In this document: positions 26,634 to 30,869 of the stretch, one piece after another
How positions within the stretch are numbered: position 1 is the first letter of the stretch
Layout: each line of letters begins with the position of its first letter
Notes under the pieces: generated by a model
What the model was told of the DNA's origin: nothing
The model's input: only the letters and a program-made list of their open reading frames with translations
Databases searched by the model: none
From: Georgenia sp. TF02-10
Lineage (GTDB): Bacteria > Actinomycetota > Actinomycetes > Actinomycetales > Actinomycetaceae
Assembly (NCBI RefSeq): GCF_022759505.1
Contig: NZ_CP094289.1
Coordinates: 2,852,001 to 2,916,000, forward strand
Length of the DNA: 64,000 bases
Direction: 5' to 3'
Program-made: the position numbers and the translations under genes

Positions 26634-28007
26634 TCAGCCGTCGCTCGTCTCCCAGGGCAGCCAGGCGGTGACCCGGAAGGTGCGACCGTCGTCGTCCAGG
26701 CCATACGTCAGCTGGCCGCCGAGGAGCTCCACCCGTTCCGCCATGCCGCGCAGGCCCTGACCGCCTGCCCCGTCCGCCGGCCCGACGTACGGGTTCCGGG
26801 CGTCGATGTGCACGCCGTCAGCCGGCCCCCCGGAGACGTCCAGCCGCAGCGGCTGGCCCGGGGAATGCTTGCGGGCGTTGGTGAGCAGCTCCTGGACGAT
26901 CCGGTACACCGCGCGGGACAGCGCCGGCCCGGCCTGTTCGGCCCCGTCGAGGTAGACGGTGGAGGTCACCGGCGCGCCGGTCTGCGCCGTCTCCTCGATG
27001 ACCCCGCGCAGGTCGGTCAGCGACAGCTCCGGTGCCGCCGGCGCGGTGCCGAGGGGCTCGCGGAGCACCGCGAGCAGCGAGCGCAGGTCCTCCATCGACC
27101 GGGCGGCCATCGACCGCACGAGCTCGGCGCTCTCGGCCAGCTCGGGGTCGTGGGCGGCCCGGGTGGCCACCGCCCCGGCGTGCAGGTTGAGCAGCGAGAG
27201 GCGGTGCCCGAGGACGTCGTGCACCTCCCGGGCGATGCGTTCGCGCTCCTGCTGGCGGGCCAGCTGGTCGCCCAGCCGGTCGGTCGTGGCACGTTCCACG
27301 CTGGCCTCCCGGGCGGCGGCGTGCGCCTCCCGGCTGGCCCGCACGAGCAGCCCGGCGCCGACGGCCACCCCCATCGCCAGCGCCACCGCCGCCGGCACCA
27401 CCCACCAGGCCAGGACCACCTGGACGGGCTCGGCGCCGACGGACGCAGGGCCCATCACGGTCTTGAGCAACGACGAGGCGGTGTCCGGCCCCCTGGCGTC
27501 CCTCGCCACGGACACCGCCGTGGCCAGCGTGACCGCTCCGGCCGTCCACCACACCTGCTCGCCGCGCCGGCGGGAGACCAGGCCGGCCAGGGCCACCAGG
27601 GCGGTCCAGGAACCGATCGGCAGGACCACGGCGACGGCGGCGGCCACGAGCGTCACCGCGTAGGGGTAGCGGTGGCGCCAGAAGAGCAGGACGGGGACGC
27701 CGAGCCCGGCGCCGAGCGCCACCAGCGCCAGCAGGAGCTGCCAGCCGCGGTCGCCGGAGGTCAGCCCGGAGTAGGCGGTCGTGGTCACCGAGGCGATCGC
27801 GCACACCGGGAGGTACAGCGCGGTGCGCCACCACGGCGCGGCCTCGGTGGGTGCCGGTGCCGCGGCTGGCGGGGCCGGCGTCTGGCCGGGTGGGCCCGCA
27901 GCCGCGCCGGGCGCGTCCGACGCACGGGCGCGCTGACCTGACACCGGGGCGGTTGGTCTGGACGCCGGGGCGCCCGGCACCGCCGCGGGCTCCGGAGGTC
28001 CATCCAT
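26634..28007 (-). CDS. sensor histidine kinase (DesK/NarX-type, HisKA_3)
   Basis: 457 residues. A ~55-residue Pro/Ala-rich cytoplasmic N-terminus is followed by five or six hydrophobic helices (about residues 62-225), a coiled linker, then the HisKA_3 dimerisation domain with phospho-acceptor His263 in ERERIAREVHDVLGHRLS, and the ATPase domain with N-box QELLTNARKHSPG and G-box GGQGLRGMAERVELLGG. No periplasmic sensor domain, so it probably senses the membrane or an associated protein, as DesK or LiaS do. ATG with TACCGT 6 bases upstream; divergent from the DUF4352 gene, a plausible target. Confidence 0.93.
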   Translation of the reverse strand: MDGPPEPAAVPGAPASRPTAPVSGQRARASDAPGAAAGPPGQTPAPPAAAPAPTEAAPWWRTALYLPVCAIASVTTTAYSGLTSGDRGWQLLLALVALGAGLGVPVLLFWRHRYPYAVTLVAAAVAVVLPIGSWTALVALAGLVSRRRGEQVWWTAGAVTLATAVSVARDARGPDTASSLLKTVMGPASVGAEPVQVVLAWWVVPAAVALAMGVAVGAGLLVRASREAHAAAREASVERATTDRLGDQLARQQERERIAREVHDVLGHRLSLLNLHAGAVATRAAHDPELAESAELVRSMAARSMEDLRSLLAVLREPLGTAPAAPELSLTDLRGVIEETAQTGAPVTSTVYLDGAEQAGPALSRAVYRIVQELLTNARKHSPGQPLRLDVSGGPADGVHIDARNPYVGPADGAGGQGLRGMAERVELLGGQLTYGLDDDGRTFRVTAWLPWETSDG

Positions 28008-29046: not shown

Positions 29047-29054
29047 CTCCGGAG
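29047..29054. repeat. CTCCGGAG palindrome, left flank of the IS110 element
   Basis: Preceded by GCATTCCG, which resembles GCATTTTCCA before the same palindrome in the array at 30676-30869. This looks like the left half of an interrupted array unit. Confidence 0.55.
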
Positions 29055-29163
29055 CCCGACATGTTGGAGATGCCGACATCCTTCAGAGAGAGAACCGAGG
29101 GGTTTCTCCCGATCAAGGTCGAGTCGGAAGCCGCAAGGACGCTGAGGTGAAACCAAGGTGACG

Positions 29164-30399
29164 TCATGCGGCTGGCGCCTCCGCGGTGACCTTGTAGCCC
29201 AGGGCGGTGAGCTCGTTGATGAGGCGCTTGGCGCGGCGTTCGGGGCTGTGCCGCCGGACGAAGTAGTCGGCGCCGAGGTCCTGGTAGGGCTGGTCCCGGT
29301 CGAGCATGTGGAAGACCGAGACCAGGATGGAGTGCTGGACGGCGCCCAGGGCCTTGGCGTGGCCACGGCGTCCCTTGATGCGGGCGTACTGCGCCGCGGA
29401 GTAGGAGGCCTTGGTCCGCACCGCCGCGGTCGCGGCGTCGTGGAGGTAGGTCCGCAACCACTTGTTGCCCTTGCGGGTCCGCCCCGACCGGGACTTCCCG
29501 GCGGACTCGTGCTGCCCCGGACAGCGCCCGGCCCAGGACGCCAGGTGCTCGGCGTCGCCGAAGACGCTCATGTCCACCCCGATCTCGGCGATGATCCCCT
29601 CCGCGGTGCGCTTGTCGATCCCGGGGGCGGTGGCCAGCAGGTCACGCTGGCGGGCGAAAGGGGCGATCACCTCATCGATCGCCTCCGACAGGCGCTCGAT
29701 CGTCTCGTCCAGGTAGTCCAGCTTGGCCAGGATCTCCCCCACGACCAGGGCGTGCTGGGCACCGAAGCGCCCCCGCAGCGCCTCGCGCAGGGCCGGGATC
29801 TTCGACCGCAGCCGCCCCTTGGCCAGGTCCGCCAGCGCGCCGGGGTCCGGCGCCCCGCCAACCAGGGCCCTGAGCATCGCCCGCCCGGAGACCCCCAGGA
29901 TGTCGGTGGCCACCGAGGAGAGCTTCACCCCGGCGTCCTGCAGGACCTTGTCCAGCCGCTGGGCCTCCCGGCCCCGCTCCTCGATCTGGGCCTTGCGGTA
30001 CCGGGTCAGGTTCCGCAGCTCCCGGATCTCCTTCGGCGGGACGAAGGAGGGCCGCACCAGCCCGTGCGCCACGAGCTGGGCGATCCCCGCCGCATCGGCC
30101 ATGTCCGTCTTGCGGCCCGGGACGTTGCGCAGGTGCCGGGCGTTGAGCAGCCAGCACCCGAAGGCGTCCTCCAGCACGTAGTACACCGGCTTCCAGTACA
30201 CCCCGGTGGACTCCATCCCCACCAGCAGCACCCCGAAGGACGTCAACCAGTCCCGCAGCGCCAGCAGGTCCTTCGTCATCGTCCCGAACGTCGCCGTCTC
30301 GGTCTGCACCTCCGTGCCGGTCGTGATCCGCACGCACGCCACGACCGTGTCCTTGTGCACGTCCAGACCCGCGCACCGCTCCACCAGCGTCTCCACCAC
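29164..30399 (-). CDS. IS110 family transposase
   Basis: 411-residue DEDD-type recombinase of IS110 elements. RuvC-like N-terminal domain: Asp13 (AGLDVHKDTV), Glu63 (VGMESTGVYW), Asp99 and Asp102 (KTDMADAAGIAQL). A coiled middle part follows, then the Tnp20 domain with APGIDKRTAEGIIAEIG and the serine of PGQHESAGKS. All catalytic residues are present and the frame is intact, so it may be active. GTG start chosen with GGAGG 5 bases upstream; an upstream open frame of 90 codons lacks support. Family members are guided by a bridge RNA from the adjacent noncoding end (established for IS621). Confidence 0.93.
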   Translation of the reverse strand: MVETLVERCAGLDVHKDTVVACVRITTGTEVQTETATFGTMTKDLLALRDWLTSFGVLLVGMESTGVYWKPVYYVLEDAFGCWLLNARHLRNVPGRKTDMADAAGIAQLVAHGLVRPSFVPPKEIRELRNLTRYRKAQIEERGREAQRLDKVLQDAGVKLSSVATDILGVSGRAMLRALVGGAPDPGALADLAKGRLRSKIPALREALRGRFGAQHALVVGEILAKLDYLDETIERLSEAIDEVIAPFARQRDLLATAPGIDKRTAEGIIAEIGVDMSVFGDAEHLASWAGRCPGQHESAGKSRSGRTRKGNKWLRTYLHDAATAAVRTKASYSAAQYARIKGRRGHAKALGAVQHSILVSVFHMLDRDQPYQDLGADYFVRRHSPERRAKRLINELTALGYKVTAEAPAA

Positions 30400-30412
30400 A
30401 ACCACCTCCACC

Positions 30413-30506
30413 AGTCGGCACCGACAAGGGCGGGTCGCCTGGGGAGCTTCACCACAGAGGAGTCTGAGGTACGCGCTCGAAGCAGCAGTTCCAGGTGCCC
30501 GAAGCT
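30413..30506 (-). ncRNA. candidate IS110 bridge RNA region upstream of the transposase
   Basis: Read on the minus strand, the leader before the transposase contains GGGAGCTTC (30506-30498) and its exact complement GAAGCTCCC (30450-30442) enclosing 47 bases, and a second small hairpin GTCGG-TG-CCGAC (30424-30413). A large stem with an internal loop upstream of the gene is what IS110 bridge RNAs look like. Structure and function are inferred from pattern only. Confidence 0.4.
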
Positions 30507-30514
30507 CCCACGTC

Positions 30515-30522
30515 ACACTCCG
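30515..30522. repeat. CTCCGGAG palindrome, right flank of the IS110 element
   Basis: Followed by GGGCTCGACCAGCACC, which aligns with GAGTACGAGTAACAGCAACC following the palindrome in array unit 2. Confidence 0.55.
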
Positions 30523-30619
30523 GAGCGGGCTCGACCAGCACCAAGTCGATCCGACGTCGACAGGCGACCCACAGACAAGGTTTCCCCCGCTCCATGCGGG
30601 CCGCAAGGCCCCGCCACCA

Positions 30620-30869
30620 CTCCGGAGTGGATCCGGCTGACGACGATCAAATCCGGAGCACGCAACCGCGATCATCTCCGGAGTGGATATCGGTCATATA
30701 GCACGCATTTTCCACTCCGGTGTGAGTATGAGTAACTGCAAACCACCTCCGGAGTGGATGTCGGTCATATAGCACGCATTTTCCACTCCGGAGTGAGTAC
30801 GAGTAACAGCAACCATCTCCGGAGTATATATAGATGCCAGGCACATGGCACGCATTTCCTGCTCCGGAG
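30620..30869. repeat. tandem array of ~70-base units with CTCCGGAG cores
   Basis: Exact CTCCGGAG at 30620, 30676, 30747, 30786, 30817 and 30862, with variants at 30651 (ATCCGGAG) and 30715 (CTCCGGTG). Two long units (from 30676 and from 30747) agree almost base for base over 70-71 bases, sharing TCGGTCATATAGCACGCATT; the third (from 30817) is diverged and the first (from 30620) more so. The array is AT-rich compared with its surroundings and ends 16 bases from the APC permease stop. Not CRISPR, as the intervening sequence is also repeated. Confidence 0.8.

Follow-up and report, generated by a model that had tools for sequence, protein, structure and literature searches.

The locus studied here, a palindrome-rich stretch of the Georgenia sp. 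TF02-10 genome that also holds an IS110 transposase gene, raises the question of how an IS110 element and a palindrome array came to stand together: whether the array was the address at which the element landed, or whether the transposon had a part in building it. The window, i.e., the whole 64-kb stretch of DNA that was analysed, contains nine copies of the palindrome CTCCGGAG where chance would give 3.2; in 100 shuffles of the 64 kb the count never rose to nine, which confirms the cluster pointed out in a preliminary description of the sequence. Eight of the nine copies lie within 29047–30869, and the additional copy is at 27990. The positions given in that description were correct at 29047, 30620, 30676, 30747, 30786, 30817 and 30862; the copy placed at 30515 is at 30518, and the first two copies are 1471 rather than 1468 bases apart. 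The gene between them was rightly called an intact IS110 transposase: the ORF on the minus strand is complete from its start at 30396 to its stop at 29164, and one recombinase carries both Pfam domains, DEDD_Tnp_IS110 (PF01548, 95.5 bits) and Transposase_20 (PF02371, 76.5 bits). Its match to NCBIfam NF033542 scored 264 bits against a cut-off of 140. We consider it highly probable that the locus holds one IS110-family copy whose two target guides together spell the junction of a palindromic repeat dispersed in the host genome.

Limits of the IS110 element

The borders (Table 1) were obtained from 56 aligned upstream regions, those of the window and 55 relatives taken from named genomes and from plasmids, and the same architecture was found in all 56 elements. 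The relatives' upstream non-coding region (NCR) aligns with the window from the start codon to about 30617; therefore, the CTCCGGAG copy at 30518 lies inside the element. At the right end (RE), TTTCACCTC-AG directly behind the stop codon matches the donor guide TACCTC-AG of the predicted bridge RNA, as does the RE motif GGTTTCACCTC-AG, which sets the right core at 29142–29143. An RE at approximately 29082 (CTGAAGG) was considered and discarded, since it is ACCTCAG at 29142 that the donor guide matches. The core dinucleotide at both element ends is CT on the plus strand, i.e., AG in the sense of the transposase. Approximately 223 nt of non-coding sequence lie upstream of tnp and approximately 20 nt downstream, the long upstream region and short right end of the IS110 group. 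The only trace of an inverted repeat in the relatives was CATGAAAAT, approximately 45 nt inside the left end (LE), against ATTTTC, approximately 5 nt inside the RE.

Table 1. Positions of the element, its guides and the surrounding palindromes in the window.
Feature	Position	Strand	Basis
IS110 element, including both core dinucleotides	29142..30621	-	RE motif against donor guide; LE core against left target guide
IS110 transposase/recombinase, 410 aa, start GTG	29164..30396	-	Pfam and NCBIfam matches
RE core dinucleotide	29142..29143	-	donor-guide match; 29047-29141 lies outside the element
Predicted bridge RNA, closing stem GGGTCGCCTG/CAGGCGACCC	30432..30570	-	conserved 5' NCR, fold, consensus pairs; upstream of transposase
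Left donor guide TACCTC + core AG	30464..30471	-	match to own RE
Left target guide CTCCGG + core AG (second CTCCGGAG of the preliminary description)	30518..30525	-	guide-flank match, 56 elements
Right target guide GGATCGACT, specifying AGTCGATCC	30544..30552	-	RT-RTG complementarity across relatives; 15-mer in repeat
Palindrome at LE junction, left target CACTCCGG-AG	30620..30627	.	8/8 match to guide
REP/BIME-like palindrome array, 31- and 39-nt units	30620..30869	.	unit comparison, genome loci
Separate CTCCGGAG palindrome, 95 bp from RE core	29047..29054	.	word count and borders

No second copy of the element was found in a search of the genome; as a single copy, it offers no second junction for examination. 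Three other IS110-type genes in the genome have no such array adjoining them, and a search of plasmids with the 3' end of the element gave no useful matches. From the borders, the junction of the circular form would be expected to read TTTCACCTC-AG-TGGTGGCGG. Joining the two flanks rebuilds an empty site, GGACG-CT-CCGGAGTGG, in which one CTCCGGAG is restored; retention of the palindrome in the empty site is one of the two points on which the preliminary description had beforehand let its proposal of insertion into the array depend, the other being the flanks of further copies, of which the genome has none.

A predicted bridge RNA upstream of the transposase gene

In the alignment, variable words stand between conserved blocks, the first after GACGTCG, the second after GAGCCCG and the third after GAGC(A/G)CG. 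The two bases behind the second and third words are identical to each other in 53 of the 56 elements (mostly AG, sometimes AA, once AC), which is the behaviour expected of a bridge-RNA core. In the centroid fold, the predicted RNA is closed by the stem GGGTCGCCTG/CAGGCGACCC, and the guides lie in open loops. A consensus structure from 20 sequences contains 13 pairs, seven of which show double changes. The minimum-energy fold, computed for the single sequence, was not significantly lower than that of shuffles (z = -1.05), and a search of Rfam with the predicted RNA returned no matching family. Judged by sequence comparison alone, the loops would pair with both target and donor around a common core, as in a bridge RNA.

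Guide words match targets and donors across relatives

The second word with its core matched the element's own left flank at a mean of 0.854 compared with 0.672 for the flanks of other elements (56 elements), and the own value exceeded all 10,000 permutations (maximum 0.718). Since the guide itself was used for LE placement, these left match rates are partly selected, for which the permutations control; no such selection by the guide affected the right-target pairs or the two bases that follow the left core. With right ends located by the donor-guide match at the motif ATTTTC-nnnnn-AG, the third word with its core matched the element's own downstream sequence at 0.910 compared with 0.710 (permutation maximum 0.762; 54 elements). 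The reverse complement of the first word matched the sequence behind the right-end core at 4.51 of 7 positions compared with 3.06 (permutation maximum 3.60) and, in free register, at 2.9 of 5 compared with 1.5 of 5. These tests indicate that the second word is the left target guide (LTG), the third the left donor guide (LDG) and the first the right target guide (RTG). The core of the LTG equals that of the LDG in 53 of 56 elements. A column-pair scan of 44 loci recovered the same positions, including some that were not used for placement, with z values of 7.0–7.9 at RD positions 2–3 and an antiparallel relation at RT positions 2–5.

A side observation concerns the left targets of several relatives (L052, L062, L065, L102 and L140), which resemble an RE (TTTTCnnnnn-AG) belonging to a different IS110 of this subgroup, giving the impression that these elements insert next to each other.

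The programmed site and the flanks of the insertion

In the window, the left guide fits the LE flank at 30620 (CACTCCGG-AG) at 8 of 8 positions. The right guide GGATCGACT reads AGTCGATCC; thus, the programmed site is CTCCGGAGTCGATCC (CTCCGG-AG-TCGATCC). Across the whole 4.09-Mb genome, this 15-mer occurs exactly at 664229, 664330 and 2144290 only. With at most one mismatch, it occurs at 16 sites, all in the repeat family, compared with none for the reversed-pattern control. The proposal that the IS110 element landed at a copy of the palindrome array therefore held: the palindrome is its programmed target, the repeat can be read in the guide RNA, and one CTCCGGAG reappears when the flanks are joined.

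In the mechanism that we propose, a bridge RNA would be transcribed from the region upstream of the transposase gene and would load onto the recombinase to form an RNP. Its left guide would pair with the left target and core, and its donor guides with the element's own ends as joined in the circular form. Recombination at the AG core would then move the element, which would land in a copy of the repeat instead of in genes. Sequence comparison, in the window and the relatives, supplied the limits of the element, the guide–target and guide–donor matches, the place of the target in the repeat and the independence of the array from the element.

The actual right flank is AGCGTCC; i.e., the CGTCC after the core matches the right guide at 0 of 5 positions. 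Insertion through the left arm alone and a later change at the right side are both possible, because the right-guide score is as low (0–1 of 5) in 11 of 40 elements. Since the right flank fails to match the right guide, we infer that the left guide was sufficient for the insertion in the window.

A refinement compatible with the guided insertion is that the right flank once matched (AGTCGATCC...) and that the 92 bp now lying between the RE and the palindrome at 29047 arrived later by rearrangement or another insertion. The right guide does fit the array units at 664229, 664330 and 2144290, and the stretch is unique in the genome and followed by an array-like end, GCATTCCGCTCC; however, a boundary, a duplication or a source of the 92 bp was searched for and none was found, and poor right matches are common among the relatives. 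We hold this refinement to be rather doubtful. Within the stretch itself (29055–29141), between the RE and the palindrome, ATGTCGG occurs as a direct repeat, and there is a weak match to a protein kinase. A kinase-gene remnant within 29047–29141 was considered from one 37-nt match (83%, E = 4.7e-4, in one genome) and set aside because 396 genomes were searched and chance could explain such a match.

It is very improbable that the guide match is a coincidence owed to a G+C-rich palindrome and that either chance or a protein recognising a hairpin brought the element close to the array. CTCCGG is indeed G+C-rich, and the right flank as it stands does not fit the right guide; however, the match is 8 of 8 exactly at the junction, the other arm points independently to this repeat as well (AGTCGATCC), the 15-mer formed by both arms has no occurrence outside the repeat family, and the same guide–flank relation recurs across the relatives. 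Still less credible is the delimitation of the preliminary description, in which the CTCCGGAG copies at 29047 and 30518 marked the two ends of the element, each end having a palindrome that was duplicated or carried along: the gene is flanked by two exact copies and GCATTCCG resembles an array unit end, but the RE is placed at 29142 by the donor guide and the LE at 30621 by the left target guide, 30518–30617 is conserved element sequence in the relatives, and the variable word at 30518 acts as a guide in 56 elements, being the left target guide in the target-binding loop. Of the two outside flanks that had been compared with the array, GCATTCCG, which precedes 29047, is indeed similar to the terminal part of a 39-nt unit, whereas GGGCTCGACCAGCACC behind 30525 is part of the conserved 5' NCR of the element itself.

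The palindromic repeat and its second transposon

The array of approximately 70-base units had been correctly seen and is made of spacings of 31 and 39 nt. Its units start with GGAGTGGAT, end with ATCCACTCC and are 31 or 39 nt long; hence, TCCGGA recurs every 31 and 39 nt. Both orientations of the 39-nt unit occur. Compensatory changes were seen in the 8-bp inverted repeat at its ends, in 5 cells compared with 0.9 in shuffles, a value that 0 of 500 shuffles reached. A model of this unit found about 20 separate loci in the Georgenia sp. TF02-10 genome; across the 213 family genomes covered, its other matches were weak and restricted to a single further genus. The repeat is essentially confined to its host genome among these 213. 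Most loci are intergenic, often between convergent genes, by a rough ORF-based check. The suggestion of a role for the transposon in making the array was not borne out, because the repeats sit at about 20 other loci without the single-copy element.

BIME arrays alternate short and long spacing. REP/BIME sequences are dispersed extragenic palindromes of 21–65 nt in many copies; the repeats described here, at approximately 20 mostly intergenic loci, are REP/BIME-like. They share with enterobacterial and pseudomonad BIME/REP sequences short extragenic palindromes that are single or arrayed, with short and long spacing alternating, and differ from them in a 12–20-bp palindrome at 31/39-nt spacing and in a genome without a Y1 (RAYT) transposase. 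The genome gave no match to PF01797, and a control search was positive in 5 of 14 genomes; RAYT was thus rejected as mobiliser of the repeats. A literature search for REP repeats in actinobacteria returned nothing relevant. In another genus (genome G021, loci L199 and L200), a distant 47-nt version, CTCCGGAG(G/T)AGAT...CTCCGGAG, was observed, which suggests that the repeat family is older than the genus.

The palindromes also receive an IS1182-like element (NF033551, 227 bits, below the cut-off of 270), whose copies are 100% identical. It is inserted at 277317, 1128287, 3465501, 3492474, 3947564 and 3951340, and also at 3243325 (L207–L214). Six of these seven insertions split the repeat's CTCCGGAG as CTCCGG|GAGCCTGTTG...CAACAGGCTC|CCGGAG with duplication of CCGG, and the remaining one lies elsewhere (CTGG). 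A non-autonomous derivative of approximately 120 bp with the same GAGCCTGTTG/CAACAGGCTC ends lies inside a repeat copy (L206:2653-2773). Because far less than 1% of the genome consists of these repeats, two unrelated transposons evidently prefer them for landing, and the question of why some repeats become transposon sinks is thereby addressable in one genome. IS1272, a relative of IS1182, is reported to target inverted repeats (PMC5678879), as the IS1182-like element does here; however, the reported outcome for IS1272 is that the element takes the place of the inverted repeat and no duplication arises, whereas CCGG is duplicated here at the centre of CTCCGGAG.

Comparison with known IS110 systems

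Insertion in REP sequences is well documented for IS110 elements, namely IS621, ISPpu9, ISPpu10 and ISRm19 (Tobes and Pareja 2006, PMC1525189; Durrant et al. 2024, PMC11208160); thus, the kind is already known. The element shares with them a DEDD/Transposase_20 recombinase, a predicted bridge RNA in a long left end, a dinucleotide core and a target within a dispersed palindromic repeat, and differs in the repeat, the host and the core AG. Although the case is of an ordinary kind, its details are instructive: guide, target and donor can be read in one natural IS110 subgroup, in which the genomic repeat word is the address and the copy within the element is the guide.

The order of the guides also differs. 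In the window's subgroup, the right target guide lies 5' and the left target guide 3' in the loop, the opposite of IS621; the 5' segment is complementary to the right flank and the 3' segment is same-sense with the left flank, rather than the bottom-strand guide (LTG) standing 5' of the top-strand guide (RTG) as in the IS621/ISEc21 type. Durrant et al. drew six diverse bridge RNAs, with ISAar29 in Extended Data Fig. 10c (PMC11208160). In the IS1111 elements ISPa11 and ISEc11, the top-strand-complementary segment comes first and the bottom-strand one second (Siddiquee et al. 2024, PMC11187229). The subgroup resembles this group in guide order, and ISPa11 targets REP too; unlike that group, it has its NCR upstream of tnp, lacks long subterminal inverted repeats and has a tnp of 410 aa. 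The IS1111 combination of 7–17-bp subterminal inverted repeats with an NCR downstream of tnp was not found.

The reversal relative to IS621, as read from the alignment, is possibly a new feature. We lean slightly towards a broader reading, in which a large upstream-RNA IS110 subgroup has the reversed guide order (RTG then LTG, with the LDG also lying 3') and both arms of the present element are programmed for a repeat that is confined to the host lineage and is also the landing site of an unrelated IS. If not yet described, a family-wide guide order would bear on the way in which the RNA is threaded through the recombinase, and it would be relevant to engineering of the subgroup. The target and donor loops (30464–30552 in the window) have a common hairpin frame, TGGTGC..GAGCCCG in the former and TGTTGC..GAGCACG in the latter, as though one of them had arisen by duplication of the other.
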